Source: a virus. From it: a stretch of DNA of 34,462 nucleotides. The notes below the pieces were generated by a model. It was given only the letters and a program-made list of their open reading frames with translations. It was not told the origin of the DNA and did not search any database. The stretch is from positions 1 to 34,462 of the IMG/VR virus record IMGVR_UViG_3300036832_000888. The stretch is one strand, 5' to 3'. Shown here piece by piece: positions 2,814 through 34,061 of this stretch; the stretch's first letter is position 1, and every line of letters starts with the position of its first letter. Both the position numbers and the translations under genes were made by a program.

Positions 2814-2924
2814 GTGACCAACCAACCCGCGCAGTACACACAGGACCAGCAGAAGCAAAAGAGAGTAGAACGTACCGGCATATGCCGCCGTGTGAGCGTT
2901 CTCGCTCAAGGAGGCATTCAGTGA
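2814..2924 (+). CDS. Short leader ORF coupled to the replication gene (36 aa)
   Basis: GTG 2814 sits eight bases after AAGGAG, and the frame runs to TGA 2922-2924, overlapping the GTG start of the next gene (GTGA 2921-2924). The product is glutamine/arginine-rich (starts MTNQPAQYTQDQQKQKR) without a recognisable domain. Strong SD placement and the exact overlap are the evidence; it may act only as a translated leader controlling the next gene. Confidence 0.4.
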   Translation: MTNQPAQYTQDQQKQKRVERTGICRRVSVLAQGGIQ

Positions 2925-4273
2925 GCAGCAAGGAGCTTTCGCACCTCGACCTGGTACAAGCCCAAGGCGCAGCACGCCACGAGGGATACAACCCCATCGC
3001 CCCGCGCTCTCATCGCTGGATGATGGATTACTCGAAACCGGAAGACGTACGCGTGATCGGGTGGGCGCTATGGCGCACCATCGACCGCGACCCGAACGGG
3101 AAGACCGGCCCGGCCAAGCGTAAGCGCACCATCTGGGCTCACGATGCGCGCGGCTGTCTCACGCTGAAGCACCTCGCCGAAGACCTCGGCATGGAGATGC
3201 CGAACGCCAGCGCCGCCGTGTGCCGACTGGAGGAGTCCGGACACGTGCGCCGCAACGACAAAGGCCACATTATGCCGCGCGGCGACATGCCCGACGCGAG
3301 GCGAATAAAAGAGGAAATCGACGAAGGCGAAGAAAAAGCGGCAGATATCTGTACAGATAACCTGCCTAGTGATTTCTCCCTTTATTTACAACAGTTTGAC
3401 GAAACGGAACGCCACAGTAGGGTGGCGGAATATTTGAAGCTCAAGGAGTACCGCAAACGGCTCGAGGCCGACGCGATCGCACTCGCCCGCGACGCCGGCG
3501 ATGAGCTCGAGCAAAAGTACTTCGAGGCCATCGGATTCAAACGGCCGGCGCGCCAAGGGCGACGCAAAAACGACCGCTCCGATTGTGCCGTGCAACTCTC
3601 GCTTTTGCAGCCGCCGCAGTTATCTGTACAGATCACCGCGAACGGCTCGAACGGTCATTCTGTACAGAGCGCGCCAGATCCTCTGTACACAAGCGAAAAC
3701 GGCACTGTACAGATAAGCCCATCCTTATTGATCTTTCACAGTTCCCATAGTTCTCACAGTGAAGTGGAAGCGCCGTCTGTGGATAACTCCGTTTCCGAGG
3801 CGCAGCCCCCACCCACCGCCCCACCTCAAAACCTTGCTCAAAAAGTGGGTGAGCCAAATCCGATAATCGCCGCAGTCGAGGCAATAGCCGGCCGGAAAAT
3901 CGGCCGGACGGACCCGCTCCGCGGAAAACTCGCCGACCTGCCCGCGAGATTTCGAATTACCGCGAGATCAGTTTGCCGATGGATGGAAGAGAAGGCCGAG
4001 AAGAAGCAGAAGGACCCGAACTATGAAAGTTTGAGCCCCGGAGCGTTGTACAAATTCGCTCTGAGCGACCTGCCCGGATGGATCAAGAGACATAAATACC
4101 AGATCAATTCGGACTGGCAGCAGGAGAACGAGCGACGCCGCGGCGACCCGGCGACTCCGGACAAACTCCGGACAAACTCCGGAGACACGACCAATCGGGA
4201 AACCGAGCCCTTCGACCCGCTTTCATACACGCAATCAATGGCAGCCCTTGCCGCCAAAAAGGGGATGCGATGA
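2921..4273 (+). CDS. Replication-initiator-like winged-helix protein (450 aa)
   Basis: GTG 2921 is chosen because AAGGAGG (2908-2914) lies six bases upstream; ATG 2882 in the same frame lacks such a site. Residues about 40-130 look like a winged helix-turn-helix (LTLKHLAEDLGMEMPNASA, then VCRLEESGHVRR). A helical middle is followed by a Ser/Gln/Pro-rich linker of about 100 residues, and a C-terminal helical part ending near LPGWIKRHK. The linker DNA contains repeated CTGTACAG sites and a DnaA box, the arrangement known from lambda O. Role as origin-binding initiator is inferred; no catalytic motif is seen. It overlaps the next gene by ATGA. Confidence 0.7.
   Translation: MSSKELSHLDLVQAQGAARHEGYNPIAPRSHRWMMDYSKPEDVRVIGWALWRTIDRDPNGKTGPAKRKRTIWAHDARGCLTLKHLAEDLGMEMPNASAAVCRLEESGHVRRNDKGHIMPRGDMPDARRIKEEIDEGEEKAADICTDNLPSDFSLYLQQFDETERHSRVAEYLKLKEYRKRLEADAIALARDAGDELEQKYFEAIGFKRPARQGRRKNDRSDCAVQLSLLQPPQLSVQITANGSNGHSVQSAPDPLYTSENGTVQISPSLLIFHSSHSSHSEVEAPSVDNSVSEAQPPPTAPPQNLAQKVGEPNPIIAAVEAIAGRKIGRTDPLRGKLADLPARFRITARSVCRWMEEKAEKKQKDPNYESLSPGALYKFALSDLPGWIKRHKYQINSDWQQENERRRGDPATPDKLRTNSGDTTNRETEPFDPLSYTQSMAALAAKKGMR
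3346..3786. other. Candidate origin of replication: iterons plus DnaA box inside the initiator gene
   Basis: Five related sites with core CTGTAC lie within 371 bases: TATCTGTACAGATA (3346-3359, perfect 14-bp palindrome), TATCTGTACAGATC (3621-3634), ATTCTGTACAGAGC (3657-3670), CTCTGTACACAA (3681-3692) and CACTGTACAGATAA (3703-3716). A perfect DnaA box, TGTGGATAA (complement TTATCCACA), follows at 3778-3786. The local sequence 3718-3765 is relatively AT-rich for this genome. Together this matches origins built of initiator iterons with adjacent DnaA sites. Function is inferred. Confidence 0.6.
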
Positions 4274-6746: not shown

Positions 6747-7003
6747 CGTACACCGAGAAAGCAGACCGCGTAACACTCGAAATGTCGCGCGAGGAATTCG
6801 CACGCTTGATGTATGAACTTGGATTCGGCCTAAGCGCCGCCATAAACGAGCGCTCGACGTACGAGGTTCATACTGGATTCGGCCTAAGCGCCGCTATAAC
6901 CGGAAAAACACAGTTGTTCCGGCACTTACGCCTTGTGAATCAGCTAAACGCCGGCAACCCACACTTTCAGCCGTACGAGATCCCGGAGAACTTCGGCCGA
7001 TGA
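6743..7003 (+). CDS. Hypothetical protein with an internal 18-residue duplication (86 aa)
   Basis: Begins and ends with ATGA overlaps. The octapeptide GFGLSAAI occurs twice, 18 residues apart, because a 26-base DNA segment is repeated (6820-6845 and 6874-6899, one mismatch). The region between copies therefore looks like a tandem duplication inside an otherwise short helical protein. No domain recognised. Confidence 0.55.
   Translation: MTYTEKADRVTLEMSREEFARLMYELGFGLSAAINERSTYEVHTGFGLSAAITGKTQLFRHLRLVNQLNAGNPHFQPYEIPENFGR
6820..6899 (+). repeat. 26-bp direct repeat inside a gene
   Basis: The copies at 6820-6845 and 6874-6899 agree at 25 of 26 positions; each begins TGGATTCGGCCTAAGCGCCG. The period is 54 bases, a multiple of three, so the frame is preserved. 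The synonymous difference and in-frame period indicate a recent duplication of 18 codons. Confidence 0.8.
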
Positions 7004-7416
7004 CAACGCAACTCGCCCTTTGGTGTCGACATTGCGGAGCATCCGAGCTGCACGCCCGCGGCCTATGCCAGCCCTGTTATGACGCCTGGAGACTCAGCGA
7101 GCGTAATTTTGCCGGACTCCGCGAGATCGCCCTCGAGCGAGACGCCGCCACCTGTACTATTTGTCTCGAGCACGATCAGCCAGTCATGCATCACAGGTTT
7201 TACAGTTCGAGACTCGACCACCTGATAACACTCTGCGCCGCTTGCCACGCCCGCGTACATCGGACCCTATACCCAGACTGGACGATGCACCCGCAACTGC
7301 GGGTTTACTGGCGCGAACTCCACCCCGGCCGGCCGGAACAACTTCCGTTATTAGAAGGCACCACCGAATTACACTTATTACGGCGCCGGCGCCGCCGGAA
7401 GGCAATGAGGGAATGA
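7000..7416 (+). CDS. HNH-endonuclease-like protein with N-terminal zinc ribbon (138 aa)
   Basis: The N-terminus CRHCG...CQPC forms a zinc ribbon (residues about 9-26). Residues about 45-90 resemble an HNH fold: RDAATCTIC, then MHHRFYSSRLDHLITLCAACHARVH, where CxxC pairs hold the structural zinc and the HH pair would supply the catalytic histidine. The asparagine position is less certain. It starts at an ATGA overlap and is immediately followed by a small membrane protein. Possible roles are DNA nicking in replication or host takeover; a second HNH gene lies at 9415. Confidence 0.65.
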   Translation: MTTQLALWCRHCGASELHARGLCQPCYDAWRLSERNFAGLREIALERDAATCTICLEHDQPVMHHRFYSSRLDHLITLCAACHARVHRTLYPDWTMHPQLRVYWRELHPGRPEQLPLLEGTTELHLLRRRRRRKAMRE

Positions 7417-7599: not shown

Positions 7600-7851
7600 A
7601 TGAAGGCAACCCCCGCAGCTCAACCCCAAACCGACCCGCAGACGCCGGAGCAATGGCAGGATGCGGTTAACCTCGCCCATTTTTTCATGGCCATCGATAG
7701 CGCCCGGCAATATGGGCTCATCGCCGGCGGCCCTACAGTGAACATCGAACGCTGCGAAGTGGTTTTAACCCAAGGCCGAGAGAAGGGAATCACGCCAAAC
7801 ACGCCGAACGTGATCGGCAAAGCGGAAAAAGCCGCTCGCGCCGCGCGCTAA
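7600..7851 (+). CDS. Hypothetical protein (83 aa)
   Basis: ATG 7600 after a 15-base gap. A glutamine/proline-rich N-terminus leads into a helical segment (WQDAVNLAHFFMAIDSARQYGLI) and a C-terminal part with GREKGITPNTPNVIGKAEKAARAAR. The pattern suggests a small soluble DNA- or protein-binding protein, but no family is recognised. A long inverted repeat starts three bases after its stop codon. Confidence 0.55.
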   Translation: MKATPAAQPQTDPQTPEQWQDAVNLAHFFMAIDSARQYGLIAGGPTVNIERCEVVLTQGREKGITPNTPNVIGKAEKAARAAR

Positions 7852-7853
7852 TT

Positions 7854-7918
7854 GAGGAGAAGACACGAAACGGAATTTAAAGCACGCTAAGCAGTCTGCC
7901 GTTTCGTGTCTTCTCCTC
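7854..7918. repeat. Perfect 20-bp inverted repeat with 25-base spacer
   Basis: Left arm GAGGAGAAGACACGAAACGG (7854-7873) is exactly complementary to the right arm at 7899-7918. AATT outside the left arm matches AATT beyond the right arm with one extra base. The RNA would form a very stable hairpin directly behind the stop of the preceding gene. No T-run follows, so ordinary intrinsic termination is not supported; RNA processing, a recombination site or a protein-binding site are alternatives. Confidence 0.85.
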
Positions 7919-7962
7919 TAATTGCTGAGACAGCAGCACCGCAAATAGCACTTTTGTAGAGA

Positions 7963-8322
7963 TTGAACAACCATAACGGCCCCCTGCGCCCCCCGATACT
8001 GCCCGCCAGAGGCCAGCCGATCGCGCCGCCCCCGGCGGCACTCCTAAGCCAATCCGCCTATACGGAAGTCAGACGCGAAACCCGGCGCCTAGAACTGATG
8101 TTCTCGAGACGACTGCCCGGCGGCACACGACACGACTATATCCGCGTGCCCGAAACGCAAACCGGCCTGGTTGTCATTGAAGTACTCACCCACGAAGTAG
8201 AAGAACTGATTAGACGCGCGTTCCTCTCGTCAAATGGGCAAATGGCGCGCGGAGGAATTCGCGTAAGAGTGCTCGAACGCCAAAAAATCACCAACGAAAC
8301 ACCGGGAGAGGCTAACACGTAA
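7963..8322 (+). CDS. Hypothetical protein with TTG start (119 aa)
   Basis: An in-frame TAG at 7957 limits the start to TTG 7963 or an internal codon; no strong ribosome binding site is present, so the start is uncertain. The N-terminus is proline-rich, the remainder alpha/beta (ETRRLELMFSRRLP, GLVVIEVLTHEVEELIRRAF). No catalytic motif is evident. A further 51 open codons follow its TAA stop in the same frame (see 8323-8478). Confidence 0.5.
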   Translation: MNNHNGPLRPPILPARGQPIAPPPAALLSQSAYTEVRRETRRLELMFSRRLPGGTRHDYIRVPETQTGLVVIEVLTHEVEELIRRAFLSSNGQMARGGIRVRVLERQKITNETPGEANT

Positions 8323-8478
8323 GACCCTTTTCACCGCCCCGAGTGGATTCCCTCCCGTAAACGACCATACGACATTTACGACCCCAGAAAAATCGGGGAT
8401 ACCGTTCTGTGCCCTGTATGCGAATTAAAAGCACCAAAGAGCACTGCAATTAACACCCGTCCCCCGGAACGGCTTTAA
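8323..8478 (+). other. In-frame open extension after a stop codon, zinc-knuckle-like
   Basis: Directly after the TAA of the 119-residue gene, 51 sense codons continue in the same frame until TAA 8476-8478. The predicted peptide looks coding, with RPEWIPSRKRPYDIYDPRK and a CPVC motif, but has no ATG, GTG or TTG. It could be a readthrough product, a gene starting at a rare codon, or the remainder of a longer gene interrupted by a recent stop. Confidence 0.35.
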
Positions 8479-10165: not shown

Positions 10166-11017
10166 ATGAAACATATCGTTGGTTTTTCTGGCGGAATTGA
10201 TAGCCAAGCATGCGCCAGATGGGTACTGAACCGATACCCCGCTGAGGACGTGCTTTTACTAAACAGCGACGCCGGCGGCAACGAACACCCGCTTACTACC
10301 GCGTTTGTTCGACACTACTCGCGCACCGTGCATAAGGTCATTGAGATAAGCGCCCGAGTCGCCGACCTCTGGAAAACCGAAGGATTCGCGGAGACTAAAG
10401 GGCTCAACGGAAACGAACGCCTCACCTTTAAACGGATGATCCAAATTAAAGGCCGGCCGCCGTCACGAACCGCGCAGTTTTGCACCGAAATTCTAAAGCT
10501 AAAGCCGCAAAAACGATGGATGGAAAAGCACTTTGGACCCGGCGGAACCTACGAAGGTGAAGATTTCTGCCGTTATACCGGAGTCCGGCGCGATGAAAGC
10601 CACAAGCGGCACGATGCCGAAATCACCGAATGGGACAGCTATTACGATTGTGAACTTATCCGCCCTATCGCCGATTGGACAAAAGAGATGTGTTTCGCAT
10701 ACGTCCAAGCGCACGGAGAGGAAGTAAACCCGCTCTATAAACTGGGCTTTTCCCGCGTAGGATGCGCGCCCTGTATCAACTCCGGCAAAGAAGACATTCG
10801 ACTGTGGTTCGATCGAGCCCCGAAAATGATCGACAAAATACGCGCATGGGAAGCCGACACCGGGAAAACGTTTTTCGCGCCGATGGTCCCCGGAAAATAC
10901 ATGAACACGATTGACGAGGTAGTTCAGTGGGCATTCACAAAGCACGGCGGAAAAGAAAAATTAGTAATTCTGCAGGACCGGCCCGCTTGTGAATCCAAAT
11001 ATGGACTTTGCGCCTAG
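10166..11017 (+). CDS. PAPS-reductase-family protein (adenine nucleotide alpha-hydrolase fold, 283 aa)
   Basis: The N-terminal SGGIDS (residues 8-13) is the PP-loop that binds ATP or PAPS. Family features follow in order: LLLNSDAG, RTAQFCTEILKLKP (C106), YTGVRRDES, RPIADWTKEM, and NPLYKLGFSRVGCAPCINSGKED (C200, C203). Relatives include CysH, which reduces PAPS, and DndC, which takes part in DNA phosphorothioation; phage versions are common and mostly of unknown activity. The extra C-terminal cysteines could hold an iron-sulfur cluster or zinc. Its neighbour is a glycosyltransferase, so a joint role in modifying DNA or virion parts is conceivable but unproven. Confidence 0.85.
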   Translation: MKHIVGFSGGIDSQACARWVLNRYPAEDVLLLNSDAGGNEHPLTTAFVRHYSRTVHKVIEISARVADLWKTEGFAETKGLNGNERLTFKRMIQIKGRPPSRTAQFCTEILKLKPQKRWMEKHFGPGGTYEGEDFCRYTGVRRDESHKRHDAEITEWDSYYDCELIRPIADWTKEMCFAYVQAHGEEVNPLYKLGFSRVGCAPCINSGKEDIRLWFDRAPKMIDKIRAWEADTGKTFFAPMVPGKYMNTIDEVVQWAFTKHGGKEKLVILQDRPACESKYGLCA

Positions 11018-11022
11018 ACCCC

Positions 11023-11847
11023 ATGAGCTACGCAGACCCATTACCGAAACCACCGGCCCCGCCGCCGCCGGCGCCGCCGGCACCGGAAGCGCCCCGCTTT
11101 TCGCTGAAAGCCGTAACGACTTGTGTAAACAACGCGGATTTTCTCGCACATACGGCGCCGCTTAACCGCGCCTGGTTCGACCGTTTTGTAATCGTCACCG
11201 CGCCGGAAGACCAAGCCACTCAAAAAGTGTGCAAGACCTGGAAGCTCGAATGCATCGTGACCGATGCGTTTAACTCGCACTGGGGAGACTTCCGCAAAGG
11301 CGCCGGAATCAACCGCGGACTCGCAAAGCTCGACATTCAGCCGCACGACTGGTTACTACACCTCGACGCGGACATAATCCTACCCGGCTCATTCCGCCAT
11401 TCGATCGAGACGGCCGAACTCGATCCGCGCATGATTTACGGATGCGATCGCATCGAGTTTAAGAGCTACCAGCAGTTTCAAAAATGGTTCGGCAACCCAA
11501 CACCGCTCAGAGACAATATGTTTATCGATATGTCGCACGTTGACGGCGCGACTATCGGCACGCGCATAGCGTTCGACCACCACAACGGATATATTCCGAT
11601 CGGTTTTTTTCAATTGTGGAACGCAGCCAGCGGCAAACTGAAATACCCAGAAGGCCACACTAACGCCGGCCGCGAGGATAGCCTGTTTAGCGCATCCTGG
11701 CCCCGCCGTCAGCGCGCATTTTTGCCCGAAGTCGTCGTTTATCACCTGGAATCGGAAGCCGCCGACATGGGTGTTAACTGGAAAAAGCGGACAACGAAGC
11801 CCTTCAGCGTCGATGCTCCGCAAAATTCAAGGTTTTCCGCAAAATAA
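11023..11847 (+). CDS. GT-A-type glycosyltransferase-like protein (274 aa)
   Basis: ATG 11023 is chosen over TTG 11008, five codons upstream, because it follows the upstream stop. The first 25 residues are a Pro/Ala-rich linker. Then comes a glycosyltransferase A pattern: FSLKAVTTCVNNADFL, FDRFVIVTAPED, and the metal-binding LHLDADIILPG (DxD). Later parts contain GYIPIGFFQLWNAASG and REDSLFSASWP, where the acidic pair could be the catalytic region. It presumably transfers sugar from a nucleotide-sugar donor; acceptor unknown. It ends the early block, before a 424-base gene-free region. Confidence 0.8.
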   Translation: MSYADPLPKPPAPPPPAPPAPEAPRFSLKAVTTCVNNADFLAHTAPLNRAWFDRFVIVTAPEDQATQKVCKTWKLECIVTDAFNSHWGDFRKGAGINRGLAKLDIQPHDWLLHLDADIILPGSFRHSIETAELDPRMIYGCDRIEFKSYQQFQKWFGNPTPLRDNMFIDMSHVDGATIGTRIAFDHHNGYIPIGFFQLWNAASGKLKYPEGHTNAGREDSLFSASWPRRQRAFLPEVVVYHLESEAADMGVNWKKRTTKPFSVDAPQNSRFSAK

Positions 11848-28558: not shown

Positions 28559-31453
28559 ATGGCCAAATTCAGCCAGATCATTATCGGCGGCCTTGAGATC
28601 GCCGCCGGCATCGCCATAGACATATTTGTTCCCGGAGGCGCGCTATTTGGAAATTTCCTAATCGCCGCCGGAGTCGGCGAGATAATCGGCGGACTCGGAA
28701 CGCTTCTCACACAGCCCCAAGGCGGACTCGCTACCTCATCCCGCAACCCCATACAGCCCTGGAATGTCATTTATGGCCGAGCCAAGACCGGCGGAACAGT
28801 CGTTTACATCAACGAATCCGGAGAGAACGACAAATATCTAGACATGGTGATTGTGCTCGCGTGCCACCCATGCGCGGGAGTCGACGCGCTCTTATTCGAT
28901 AACCAGCGAGTCTTAATCGGCTCGAACGGAAACAGCGTACGGCCCACCCGCATCACAGGCACCGACAACCAGGAAACCATCAACTTCTCGAGCATCACGC
29001 GCAGTAACGGAGTCGTCACCGTAGTTCTCTCCTCCGCCTTCACAATCCCACTGCAGGACGGAGACCAGCTCATAGTGAGCAACGTGAGCGGACAGACCAC
29101 CGGCGACAAATCGCTCAACGGCAAGTGGTACATCTCCGTGGTCAATTCCACCACCTTCACCTATATCTGCGGAGGCTTTAACGTTTCGCTCAGCTCGACC
29201 GGCAAGGCGCAGACGTGCTTTCCGGACTATCGCGAAAAGGTTCACGTTGAGTACTTACTCGGAAACCAGACCGCCACGTTTCCGGGCATGATTTCAGGAA
29301 CGCCCTACGATGCCGGCGGCTCGACTGTCACAGTCTCAAATAACCCCTGGACAGCGGATTGCAAACTCACCGGCCGCACCGCGGCCTTTCTTCGCTTGCA
29401 CTACAACGATGAGGTGTTTGCGAGCGGACTACCGCAAATCAGTTTTCGACTCCGCGGAAAAAATGACATTCTCGACCCGCGCACCGGAGACACCGGCTAC
29501 ACCGAAAACGCCGCCCTTTGCATTGCGGACTATTTGAGTAATCAGAGCTTCGGTTACAAGGCGGCCTACGGAACCGAAATTCCAACCGGCCCCTTGATGG
29601 CGGCAGCAAATATCTGTGATGAAGCCGTGACCCTTGCCAGCGGCGCCACCGAACCGCGCTACACCTGCAACGGGCAATTTACCCTCAATACCTCACGAGG
29701 CGAAGTACTGCAAAACCTTCTGACGAGCTGCGCCGGCCGGCTAACTTATTCAGGCGGCCGATTCGTCGTGACGCCGGCGGCATGGGTTGGAACTTCGGTA
29801 CAGGCTTACACCGGAATCGTCAACTCGAGCGGATCGCCGGCAACGACCGCAACCCTAAAAATACTGACCTCGCACACGCCCGGAAGCCCGGCCGCACTCC
29901 CCGGCCTGTGTTCAGTGCAGGGGTTTTCCCTCTTCTATCACGGATGGATGAACGATTCCTCTTCATGGACACTCCGCACCGATTCACTAACACTCTCGCC
30001 CGGCGACCTCTCCACCCTGAAGGTAATGTTCGCAATTGGACCCGGAACAGCAATCAGCACCGAAAGCACCGCCGACGAATTCAGAATTTATGACTGTTGG
30101 ATCGAGGTTACTTTCGCCGACTCGACCACCGGCACCTATCGAGCAACCAACGCGGCCATTAGCACCGCATGGACAGACGGCACGATAACCAACCAGGCAA
30201 ACGCGATTGACTCATCCACTTCGACCTACGCCACCATCCAACGCTCGCACGTCGACACGTTGGACTTTTCCCCGGTACTCGTCTTAACCGCGTTCAATTA
30301 TCCGGACCAAACCGCCGTATTGACGCCGGCACCCCTCGCCATGAGCCCACTAGGCAACGCGGCCGGCCCGTTTCGATGGCGTTCGAAAGTGGCAATCCGC
30401 GACCTCTACAACGGAGTGAAAGGAACCTATGTCAGCCCGGTAAACGGATGGCAAACCAGCGACTTTCCACCCTACGCGCAGGACACGCTACACGGATACT
30501 CGAGCGATGCCAACCTCACAGCAGACGGAGGCGACCGCCGTTGGTTAGATATCCAGTTACCCTTTACAGTTTCCTCGAGCACCGCGCAACGCTTAGCCAA
30601 AATCGAGCTCATGCGGCGCCGGCAGCAAGGCACCGGCACGTTTGCTTTCAATGCCTCGCTTTACCAGCTCACCGCGCTTGATGTCGTGCAAATGACCGTC
30701 CCCTACCTCGGATGGACGAACAAACTTCTCGAGGTTAGCGCGCACCGACTCACACAAAACAAAATCCAAAACGGCGATGCCGAAGCAACGCTCCTCGGTT
30801 GTGAAATCGATGTTCAGGAGACCGACCCGAGCGTTTACGATTGGAGCGCAACCGAAGAGCTGACCCCGCAGGGATTTCAACAAACCACCACGCCCGGCAG
30901 CGGCGCGAACACCATTGTCACCGCACCCGCGGGAGTATCGGCGACCAACACGACCGCGGCCGGAACTGGACTCACAACCGGACAAATTCAAATCACCTGG
31001 ACCGCTCCGAGCGATGGATACGTGACCAGCGGCGGCCAGACCATCACTCAATATTCGCTCGATAACATCAACTGGATACCGCTAGGCACCTACGACGCGA
31101 GCGTTACCACTGCCTATATCCCCACCGTCGCCGCCGGCCAGAGCTATTGGGTGAGAGTCGCATTCCAGAATGCTCAAGGCGTTCAGAGCGCATGGACGGT
31201 TTACGGCCCGCTCACCGCAACCGGCTCGAGCGTTTCGGCAGGCGTCGGAGTCCGAGAGACCCCGAGCGGAACCCTGAACGGAACCAACACCGGCTTTACC
31301 TTGAGCTTCACACCGGCCACCGGATCATTACTGCTGTTCCTCAACGGCGCCGAGCAGCTTCCCACTACGGACTACACCATCACCGGCGCCGCCATCACCT
31401 TTACAGTTGCACCGAAATCAACAGACCTCATGATTGCGTGGTACACGCACTAG
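28559..31453 (+). CDS. J-like tail tip / host-specificity protein (964 aa)
   Basis: ATG 28559. The first 60 residues are hydrophobic and glycine-rich (IIIGGLEIAAGIAIDIFVPGGALFGNFLIAAGVGEIIGGLG), then QPWNVIYGRAKTGGTVVYIN opens the conserved hub domain of J-like proteins. DTGYTENAALCIADYLSN and GEVLQNLLTSCAGRLTYSGGRFVVTPAAW are typical for this class. A fibronectin-type III-like domain occupies residues about 780-890 (PAGVSATNTTAAGTGLTTGQIQITWTAPSDGYV...). It joins the tail tip to the receptor-binding fibre encoded next. Confidence 0.87.
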   Translation: MAKFSQIIIGGLEIAAGIAIDIFVPGGALFGNFLIAAGVGEIIGGLGTLLTQPQGGLATSSRNPIQPWNVIYGRAKTGGTVVYINESGENDKYLDMVIVLACHPCAGVDALLFDNQRVLIGSNGNSVRPTRITGTDNQETINFSSITRSNGVVTVVLSSAFTIPLQDGDQLIVSNVSGQTTGDKSLNGKWYISVVNSTTFTYICGGFNVSLSSTGKAQTCFPDYREKVHVEYLLGNQTATFPGMISGTPYDAGGSTVTVSNNPWTADCKLTGRTAAFLRLHYNDEVFASGLPQISFRLRGKNDILDPRTGDTGYTENAALCIADYLSNQSFGYKAAYGTEIPTGPLMAAANICDEAVTLASGATEPRYTCNGQFTLNTSRGEVLQNLLTSCAGRLTYSGGRFVVTPAAWVGTSVQAYTGIVNSSGSPATTATLKILTSHTPGSPAALPGLCSVQGFSLFYHGWMNDSSSWTLRTDSLTLSPGDLSTLKVMFAIGPGTAISTESTADEFRIYDCWIEVTFADSTTGTYRATNAAISTAWTDGTITNQANAIDSSTSTYATIQRSHVDTLDFSPVLVLTAFNYPDQTAVLTPAPLAMSPLGNAAGPFRWRSKVAIRDLYNGVKGTYVSPVNGWQTSDFPPYAQDTLHGYSSDANLTADGGDRRWLDIQLPFTVSSSTAQRLAKIELMRRRQQGTGTFAFNASLYQLTALDVVQMTVPYLGWTNKLLEVSAHRLTQNKIQNGDAEATLLGCEIDVQETDPSVYDWSATEELTPQGFQQTTTPGSGANTIVTAPAGVSATNTTAAGTGLTTGQIQITWTAPSDGYVTSGGQTITQYSLDNINWIPLGTYDASVTTAYIPTVAAGQSYWVRVAFQNAQGVQSAWTVYGPLTATGSSVSAGVGVRETPSGTLNGTNTGFTLSFTPATGSLLLFLNGAEQLPTTDYTITGAAITFTVAPKSTDLMIAWYTH

Positions 31454-31463
31454 GCGGCCTTCT

Positions 31464-34061
31464 ATGTCAGCTCATTCTTATTGGCGCCTCAACATAACAG
31501 CAGTCGCAACCGGCAAACTGGCCGGAATCGCGAAGTGGATTCCGCTCGACAGCGGCGGATCAGCTATCGCGACCACTGGCGGAACGGCTTCAGCCTCGAG
31601 CAACTACCCTGGACAACCCGCGTCGAATGCGTTTGACGGCAACACGAGCACATTCTGGCTATCTAACGCCGAGCCCTCCTGGTTGCAGTATCAATTTGCG
31701 TCCCCGGTCGACATTGTTTCGTTTACGTTGACCAATCCACCATCAGGGAATGAGGACAATTGCCCGCAGAATTTTCAACTGCAGTACAGCGACAACGGAA
31801 CCACCTGGACCACGCTTTACACCTATAAAGGCGTCGGATGGGGCTCAGCGAGCAACACGCTCACTTTCAACGCGAGCAACATAACTCCGGCATCGCCCCC
31901 GATCTGCTGGCGTTTAAATATCAACACAACGGCATCTTCGGCAAATTCCGCCTCTATCGCTGAATGGAAACTCTACGACGCCAGCTCCACCCAAATTCCG
32001 ACGAGTCTTTTCAGTGCGGACGCGTCCTCCACTTATGGCGGGCAATACGGGCCAAGCAGTGCATTTGATGGAAACACAAGCACATTTTGGAACTCCTCCG
32101 CTATCATCTCCACCGGCAATCCGCAATGGCTTCGCTACGACTTTGCGACTTCTGTAACCGTCGCATCCTTCAGCATCCAAGCGCGGCCGAGCGCTCCTCT
32201 GAGCCAGACGCCCGCCACCTTCGACCTGCAGTACAGCACCGACGCCGGCGCCACTTGGACGACTAGCGCTAGCTACACTGCCGCCGCCTGGACGACGAAC
32301 GGCCAGACTCAGACCTTTAACGTACCTAGCAGTGTCCTTTCACCGTCCAGTGCAAATCAACTAACAAGCCCGACTGTAACGGCCACTGGGACTAATACCC
32401 ATTTCGTCTCAGGAACAACCACCGTCGCAGTCAGCGGAACCGGCGTCACCGTAGGCACAGTCACCGTTTCCTCAGGTACTTCGCTCACCGCCGCGCTCAC
32501 CGTCAGCAGTTCGGCCCCCCCCGGTACACGAACAGTAACAATTACAACCGGCTCAGAGGTGGCCATTGCCACATTTACGGTTATCGCGGGAAGCGCCGCA
32601 ATTTCCCTTTCGCCGACAACCGCGCAGCAAGGCGCTGTACTGACAGTCAGCATCACCGGAACTTTCACGCATTTTGTTTCCGGAACGACTACCGTTGCTG
32701 TCAGCGGAACCGGCGTCACCGTAGGGACACTTACCGTTTCCTCCGGTACTTCGCTCACCGCCGCGCTCTCCATTAACAGCTCAGCCGCCGCGACCGCTCG
32801 AACCCTCACCGTCACCACCGGATCAGAAGCACCGACCGCCACATTCACAATCACGACAGCAAGCACCAGCAGCGAACGCGGCCATATCGATTTTGACCAG
32901 CTACGCGCATCGGCACGCCTCGGAACCGGCACGCAAATACAGATGGCCGGCCCCGGCGGATACGTCCAAGGAAACATCCCTGTCTATGACGTCAACGGAA
33001 ACCTAGTCAATAGCGGAGCGAACCTACCCGGCGCCGGCCCCGTCGGAACCGTCGCGGCCGTAGGCCTTTCCATGCCGGCTGATTTTACTGTCACCGGATC
33101 ACCCCTCACTGGCGCAGGAGGAACACTAGCCGTTACGGGAGGAGTTAGCAAAAACGCGATCCAGCAACAGTCATATCTGTACGCCGCCGACACCGGCGCC
33201 GCCAACGCCTACGCGGTTTCGCTATCTCCCGCGCCGACACTCGCCGCCGGCTCATGCGTGGTCTTCAAAGCCACGAACGCCAACACCGGAGCAAGCACGC
33301 TCGCCGTCAACGGCGGCACCGCAACGCCGATCAAGAAAAACGGCTCGACCGCTCTAGCTAGCGGCGACATTGCCGCAGGCCAGATAGCCGTAGTAGTTTA
33401 TGACGGCACCAATTTTCAACTCATTGCAGGCGCCACCTCGGGAGGCGGCGGAGGCATCAGCGCGCCGGCCATTCGTGGAAGTGGTATCCAAGCCTCATCA
33501 AACTCGAGCTATACCGTCAACTGGCCCACCGGAACCGCAGCCGGAGACCTGGCGGTTATCGCTGGTGGACATGGCTTTGGCTTAAACAACCCCACGGGCT
33601 GGACCGTCCTTGATAACTCGACCGGGAGCAACTGGAACGGCGCCGCCTGGAGTCGTGCACTGACCGCGGCCGACATTACCACCGGCCACGTCACGATCAC
33701 CACTGCGGGCAGTTTTGATGGAGCCCTGGCGATTATTACGTTCGTGGGAAGCCCCGGCGGAATTCGGGCAACCGTCGCACAGCGGAACGGCGCCGGCGCC
33801 AGTTCGATCACGCTCAACACTGACGGCAGCCCGCTCACTACCGACGTTATGGTGTACTTCGGCTCTAACCGCGCCGCTTCCACCGACACTGTTTCCCTAG
33901 GCTCGAACTTGCAGCAAGCTAACGACGGTTCAGCCGCGTCCGCTTGCCTATTCGCCGGCTCGCCCGCAGCTATCGGCGGAGTAAGTCCCGTCTTTTCGTA
34001 TAGCGCCGCGGGAAGCGGTAACTACCAAGCCGCCATTGCCGTGAAAGCGATCGGAACCTAA
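31464..34061 (+). CDS. Tail fibre with two discoidin-like domains and two Ig-like repeats (865 aa)
   Basis: ATG 31464 (MSAHSYWRLN) is preferred over TTG 31434, which lies inside the previous gene. Two F5/8-type C (discoidin) modules occur near residues 1-145 and 150-290 (each with YWRLNI/CWRLNI, AFDGNTSTFW, LQY/RYDFA). Two 90-residue Ser/Thr-rich beta repeats follow (about 300-470), then a fibre body with LSMPADFTVTGSPLTGAGGTLAV. The C-terminal 200 residues (IRGSGIQASSNSSYTVNWPTG... onward) look like a fibre head. Discoidin modules usually bind carbohydrates, so receptor binding to cell-surface glycans is plausible. Confidence 0.85.
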   Translation: MSAHSYWRLNITAVATGKLAGIAKWIPLDSGGSAIATTGGTASASSNYPGQPASNAFDGNTSTFWLSNAEPSWLQYQFASPVDIVSFTLTNPPSGNEDNCPQNFQLQYSDNGTTWTTLYTYKGVGWGSASNTLTFNASNITPASPPICWRLNINTTASSANSASIAEWKLYDASSTQIPTSLFSADASSTYGGQYGPSSAFDGNTSTFWNSSAIISTGNPQWLRYDFATSVTVASFSIQARPSAPLSQTPATFDLQYSTDAGATWTTSASYTAAAWTTNGQTQTFNVPSSVLSPSSANQLTSPTVTATGTNTHFVSGTTTVAVSGTGVTVGTVTVSSGTSLTAALTVSSSAPPGTRTVTITTGSEVAIATFTVIAGSAAISLSPTTAQQGAVLTVSITGTFTHFVSGTTTVAVSGTGVTVGTLTVSSGTSLTAALSINSSAAATARTLTVTTGSEAPTATFTITTASTSSERGHIDFDQLRASARLGTGTQIQMAGPGGYVQGNIPVYDVNGNLVNSGANLPGAGPVGTVAAVGLSMPADFTVTGSPLTGAGGTLAVTGGVSKNAIQQQSYLYAADTGAANAYAVSLSPAPTLAAGSCVVFKATNANTGASTLAVNGGTATPIKKNGSTALASGDIAAGQIAVVVYDGTNFQLIAGATSGGGGGISAPAIRGSGIQASSNSSYTVNWPTGTAAGDLAVIAGGHGFGLNNPTGWTVLDNSTGSNWNGAAWSRALTAADITTGHVTITTAGSFDGALAIITFVGSPGGIRATVAQRNGAGASSITLNTDGSPLTTDVMVYFGSNRAASTDTVSLGSNLQQANDGSAASACLFAGSPAAIGGVSPVFSYSAAGSGNYQAAIAVKAIGT
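32400..32785 (+). repeat. 270-base periodic repeat encoding two Ig-like modules
   Basis: A segment of about 116 bases starting at 32400 recurs at 32670 with high identity, in the same frame. The period is 270 bases (90 codons). Translation gives FVSGTTTVAVSGTGVTVGT in both copies. The DNA similarity indicates a recent tandem duplication within the fibre gene, or conversion between copies. Confidence 0.85.

Follow-up and report, generated by a model that had tools for sequence, protein, structure and literature searches.

We propose, with a probability of roughly 0.8, that a gene at positions 2921-4273 of a tailed-phage contig encodes a replication initiator and carries the replication origin in its own coding sequence. 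Its N-terminal winged helix would bind CTGTACAG, an array of such sites would support melting in an O-some-like complex, its C-terminal domain would engage the host helicase, and an isolated palindrome would serve control. The window, that is, the whole stretch of DNA analyzed, is a linear IMG/VR virus contig of 34,462 bases with HK97-type head genes. We infer that replication starts at the initiator gene from four lines of evidence, namely the clustering of the sites, their conservation, selection acting on them at the DNA level, and the predicted domains of the protein. The preliminary description of this DNA had suggested a lambda-O-like origin embedded in the initiator gene, and this view is upheld by the retention of the array in homologs and by the occurrence of the same motif in genuine PF04492 O proteins.

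Putative initiator gene and predicted domains

The gene and the segments of its predicted product are as follows.

2921-4273, + strand: initiator gene, 1353 bp and 450 aa, with a GTG start and AGGAGG at 2909-2914; defined from the sequence and from homologs L174, L175, L169, L177, L137, L007, L179/L180 and L182
3041-3277, + strand: codons of the predicted winged-helix DNA-binding domain (residues 41-119; H-H-H-beta-beta; AF2 pLDDT mostly 82-92, one loop lower)
3401-3532, + strand: codons of a predicted long helix (residues 161-204; AF2 pLDDT about 77-81), which parts the two site-bearing linkers
3857-4144, + strand: codons of the predicted C-terminal helical domain (model residues 313-408; AF2 pLDDT mostly 77-91)

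Profile searches with the window protein gave no Pfam or PHROG assignment for this family. The winged helix showed weak MarR matches at 90-125 of a 463-aa frame, and its matches to Pfam winged-helix families were under the cut-offs. In the AF2 model the winged helix is followed by a low-confidence segment (residues 122-142), and the site at 3349 is encoded just past this segment, ahead of the long helix; the second linker (residues 220-312) is disordered and spans the array. The C-terminal helical domain, which occurs in the family alignment as two exchangeable sequence types, is presumed to contact the replisome. A whole-chain Foldseek search with the window protein yielded PDB matches that were not significant and BFVD matches that were marginal; those among viral models, all of them weak, included replication initiators as well as DnaD-like proteins and a lambda GpO N-terminal protein.

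Several other features of the window were also observed. Just 5' of the initiator gene, the minus strand has a terminator-like hairpin with a T-rich stretch after it (2685-2717). An HNH nuclease gene (7000-7416) is kept near the initiator in L174, L175, L177 and L169, and likely belongs to the replication/recombination module of the initiator. A PAPS reductase gene and then a possible glycosyltransferase (10166-11847) form a likely cargo pair, and PAPS reductase is among the functions reported in Acidobacteriota-linked viral genomes (PMC11924767). In addition, two F5/8 type C (discoidin) domains occur in a protein of the tail region (31434-34061), which may be a surface adhesin.

Sites within the gene

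The candidate DNA signals in the gene are as follows.

3345-3360, strandless: isolated palindrome ATATCTGTACAGATAA, 14/16 dyad, the top match (22.5 bits) of a weight matrix built without the window; putative dimer or operator site
3624-3631, strandless: array site 1, CTGTACAG (exact search, matrix and homolog comparison)
3660-3667, strandless: array site 2, CTGTACAG (same evidence)
3683-3690, strandless: array site 3, CTGTACAC, in a different codon frame (site search, frame analysis and homolog comparison)
3705-3712, strandless: array site 4, CTGTACAG (exact search, matrix and homolog comparison)
3720-3765, strandless: conserved post-array element, CATCCTTATT then CACAG/TTCTCACAG half-site-like repeats (8 family members aligned at the DNA level); candidate element for unwinding or ssDNA binding
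3330-3409, strandless: least stable 80-bp stretch of the gene (nearest-neighbour scan), AT 61% vs 41% for the gene; possible unwinding element
3778-3786, - strand: exact DnaA box TTATCCACA (TGTGGATAA on the + strand), the only exact DnaA box of the window

Exact CTGTACAG occurs four times in the whole record (3349, 3624, 3660 and 3705), always within 2921-4273; the search across all 34,462 bases, which had been suggested earlier, found no exact copy elsewhere. The mean expectation in first-order Markov sequences of the window's length is 0.16 copies, and the chance that four random positions would all fall in the 1353-bp gene is, by simple arithmetic, about 2e-6. The most clustered 8-mers of the window are CTGTACAG itself and two 8-mers that overlap it. 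The preliminary description had counted five sites and a DnaA box, with all of the sites in one Ser/Gln-rich linker. Four exact sites and one perfect DnaA box were recovered, but the fifth site, at 3683, is a 7/8 copy; likewise, four sites do form an array (3624-3712, spacings 36, 23 and 22) in the disordered Ser-rich linker, but the site at 3349 stands alone, 275 bp upstream of the array, in the earlier linker between the winged helix and the long helix. The dyads of the window sites score 14, 12, 10 and 8 of 16, so that they are imperfect inverted repeats.

The AT content just past the array (3717-3775) is moderately raised, at 51% vs 41% for the gene, and the least stable DNA of the gene lies at and to the right of the isolated palindrome, not after the array. 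Across the family, the least stable stretch is at the place of the isolated palindrome in five of eight members and at the array in the other three. DnaA boxes show no enrichment in the window when up to one mismatch is allowed (2 observed vs 3.7 expected), and a box at the matching place, TTTTCCACA, is present among the homologs only in L174; the DnaA box is thus weak sequence evidence for an origin. The GC skew of the window, a linear fragment, showed no switch.

Homologs and the conserved plan

The window protein used alone as a query gave no matches among phages or viral contigs. A DNA pattern scan for three sites centred on TGTACA and spaced 12-18 bp from one another identified L007, L137 and L169, which carry genes homologous to the initiator, and a search with a protein-only alignment added L174 (E 8e-70), L175 (2e-57), L177 and the near-identical pair L179/L180. 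Most matches of the DNA scans were discarded as peptide repeats, for example pentapeptide or PVQ repeats. The genome collection contributed one member, L182, in the Bryobacterales (Acidobacteriota) MAG palsa_130, which brings the homologs to seven distinct IMG/VR loci and one Bryobacterales MAG. Scanning again with sub-alignments turned up no additional members, and no plasmid relatives were found. The host of the phage is likely a member of the soil Acidobacteriota, as suggested mainly by the single locus L182 and also by the PAPS reductase gene of the window. Integrase genes were present in six of the seven homolog records tested but not in the window.

The window and six phage homologs (L174, L175, L169, L177, L137 and L007) share one plan, in which an isolated site is followed by a four-copy array, each in the matching linker. 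The isolated site lies at the codons CTD/CTE in all seven, with two copies in L175, and the array starts 269-296 bp 3' of it; in L174, where a segment is inserted, the distance is 353 bp. We considered and rejected a fixed helical phase from isolated site to array, given that these distances share no phase. The array spacings are 36-23-22 in the window and L177 and 24-23-22, 15-23-22, 24-24-21, 24-22-23 and 21-23-22 in the others; the homolog spacings are mostly 21-24 bp, and the last two are 23 and 22 in five of the seven. In the phage homologs, a CATCCTTATT-like element and then ACAGAG/TCTCAGAG-like repeats come after the array, and TGTACAGA is nearly limited to the initiator gene across the whole homolog records.

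The isolated sites are more symmetric than the array copies (mean 13.5/16 vs 9.8/16; Mann-Whitney p=0.002, with copies that are not independent of one another), and they are perfect 16-bp palindromes in L169, L175 and L137. The palindromic form of the repeats had been taken as a sign that the recognition mode may be new. This is not supported, both on account of the lower symmetry of the array copies and because each 19-bp iteron of lambda is likewise an imperfect inverted repeat, to which O binds as a dimer (PMC7466680; PMC3985674). The more divergent homologs have a palindrome with a changed core 5' of the start codon, namely TTGTATGTACATACAA twice in L179 and GACCATGTACATGGTC in L182, and the L182 gene contains no array.

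Selection at the DNA level

A weight matrix built from 21 homolog sites, leaving out the window, ranked 3349, 3624, 3660 and 3705 first to fourth in the 34 kb, with 4046, also in the initiator gene, ranked fifth and 3683 eighth. All three codon frames are represented among the window sites (ICTD, SVQ and LYT), and therefore the sites are not a peptide repeat. The codons used at the sites are uncommon, as TCT, ACA and GTA make up 5%, 13% and 22% of their synonyms, respectively. Because the motif itself had defined the sites, a codon test over all pairs was replaced by a fairer one, in which the comparison was made only with homologs found by protein search. Where the amino acids agree, codons were identical at 26 of 36 positions at the sites vs 214 of 478 elsewhere (p=0.0016). 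These results support selection at the DNA level on the sites in the linkers. The earlier suggestion that the coding function of the linker is subordinate to its DNA signals is supported by this codon usage and raised codon identity, as well as by the AF2 disorder at residues 220-312 and the low confidence beside the isolated site.

The same site in other initiators and loci

The DNA pattern alone also identified initiators of unrelated families, namely L130, which is O-like (PF04492 E=6e-26; phrog_277 1.5e-30), and L031 and L134, which are O-like by PHROGs; each of the three carries a CTGTACAG array in the linker. The recognition helix of L130 (SHVSEVLSQL) resembles that of L007 (SHASEVLTEL); these two sequences fit a recognition helix that may read the site. 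IPK, which among isolated phages comes nearest to L130 in its O protein, has no TGTACA in its O gene, and therefore the site is not general in O genes. A literature search for CTGTACAG returned no replication paper among the matches listed.

Other loci were noted as well. In the O gene of L130 (6607-7902), an insertion that resembles a GIY-YIG homing endonuclease (phrog_314) separates the winged helix from the CTGTACAG array. In the Acidobacteriota genome G203, the gene L184:520-1938, which is homologous to the initiator in its C-terminal part and adjoins a ParA-like ORF, contains four to five embedded palindromes GTTTCATCCCC[A/T]GGGGATGAAAC, the same plan with another site; L184 is probably a plasmid replicon. 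In L095, an isolate-derived viral record, five near-palindromic (A/G)GTCTGTACAGAC copies (7656-7790) lie just 5' of an ORF (7876-8445) whose product looks like a winged-helix protein. Three CTGTACAG sites with gaps of 22 and 41 (L008:9835-9905, with orthologs L014, L032, L121 and L128) occur near the 5' end of a long ORF resembling a phage DNA polymerase, as a possible origin or a coding coincidence.

Proposed mechanism and alternative explanations

In the proposed mechanism, the N-terminal winged helix would bind the CTGTACAG sites, and the four array copies, about two helical turns apart, would organize a complex like the lambda O-some. This complex may melt weak DNA nearby, for which 3720-3765 and 3330-3409 are the candidates, and the C-terminal domain would then recruit the host helicase. 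The isolated, more symmetric palindrome would be bound by a dimer, probably for control, either as autorepression or a roadblock or by handcuffing to the array; this is the least certain step. The palindrome looks like an operator because two distant homologs (L179 and L182) have it 5' of the gene. More tentatively, the protein might be a two-state initiator whose whole control circuit lies within its own frame, such that palindrome-bound dimers block transcription or handcuff the array in the manner of plasmid copy control, the array fires the origin, and the palindrome moves between promoter and internal linker in evolution. The concerted change of site and protein in L179 and L182 was counted in favor of a self-encoded binder. 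Counted against the embedded-origin reading were the lack of a detected loader, a PF04492 match and a GC-skew switch, the position of the least stable DNA at the isolated site, and L182, without an array.

We also considered the possibility that the sites are operators only, with the winged-helix protein not an initiator but a regulator of transcription, repressing either its own gene or a promoter inside it. In L179 and L182, perfect palindromes immediately precede the start codon, which agrees with this notion, as does the MarR-type winged helix. However, four regularly spaced copies in the middle of a gene typify origins rather than operators, the long helix, disordered linker and C-terminal domain fit the architecture of an initiator, and the same arrays are carried by PF04492 initiators; we therefore consider this explanation improbable, although it is the strongest of the alternatives. 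It is more improbable still that the sites belong to a phage-plasmid and form its centromere-like partition locus, to which an adaptor, ParB-like or other, would bind. Clustered 16-bp palindromes would suit such a locus, as would the ParA-like gene beside the embedded palindromes of L184, but no ParA or ParB domain was found among the window proteins scanned, and the integrases of the homolog records point to integrating temperate phages.

Nearly as improbable is that a host factor, and not the phage protein, reads CTGTACAG. This would explain the sharing of one core among several unrelated initiator families, but the flanks and even the core vary with protein lineage (ATAT, TTGT, ATGTACAT), as expected for a self-encoded binder. 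Finally, the sites might reflect coincidence or a repeated Ser-Val-Gln peptide with no DNA function, given that CTGTACA arrays in viral contigs are in many cases simple peptide repeats. The use of three frames, the synonymous-codon bias, and the spacing and isolated site kept across remote homologs contradict this explanation, and we regard it as very nearly negligible. Thus, the reading of the gene as an initiator with an embedded origin is preferred.

Implications

The protein family, the site and the isolated palindrome are new here, whereas palindromic iterons and an embedded origin, as in lambda, were already known. The analysis provides a base-precise predicted origin for probable Acidobacteriota temperate phages, and the predicted minimal replicon is a possible vector for soil bacteria that are hard to handle. 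It also indicates that an embedded origin with four iterons recurs beyond the recognized lambda-O family. The natural series of sites paired with recognition helices offers a test of how such initiators choose their DNA, and the separate palindrome allows a direct test of copy control in a phage origin of the embedded kind.

Comparison with known systems

The Vibrio cholerae PLE RepA_N replicon resembles the present system in its self-encoded initiator and semi-palindromic iterons, but the PLE origin is intergenic, with three repeats of about 30 bp. The F plasmid RepE/oriS system is similar to the proposed layout in that one initiator would have two kinds of site, less symmetric tandem iterons and a more symmetric palindrome, and only in L179 and L182 does the palindrome lie 5' of the gene, like the RepE operator (PMC13028717). 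It differs in that the window iterons lie in coding sequence and a single winged-helix domain is predicted; no Pfam match to a plasmid Rep family of the RepE type was found in the window protein or its homologs.

The lambda O gene, read as a control, has four annotated iterons with spacings of 20, 24 and 23 in different codon frames. In lambda, and by prediction in the window, the origin lies within the initiator gene, in a linker past the winged helix, and comprises four tandem inverted repeats about two helical turns apart in differing frames, with weak DNA nearby, which in the window is least stable at the isolated palindrome. The window gene thus has the lambda-O-type features of a predicted N-terminal winged helix ahead of a disordered linker and of four tandem iterons inside the gene, about 20-24 bp apart save for the first spacing of 36. 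The two differ in the site itself (CTGTACAG vs TCCCTC-N5-GAGGGA in lambda) and in the extra isolated palindrome about 275 bp upstream inside the window gene, for which we know of no lambda counterpart. They differ also in the neighborhood of the gene: no helicase-loader gene is recognized next door in the window, where the adjoining ORFs have no family matches and no P-like neighbor was recognized, and the nine records (window and homologs), which are fragments, yielded neither a DnaB_C nor an IstB-type loader. PF04492 (Phage_rep_O) gave no match in the window protein or its homologs. A profile comparison of the winged helix with the lambda-O family by hhalign, using the O genes of lambda, Sf101, Pm34, Kp6 and YPHTV-1, gave a probability of 54% (P=1.3e-4), which is suggestive only. 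Without claiming membership in the lambda-O family, we conclude that the plan shared by the homologs, the matrix ranking and the arrays in unrelated O-type initiators strongly support a lambda-like origin embedded in the gene, and that the family probably works like lambda O.
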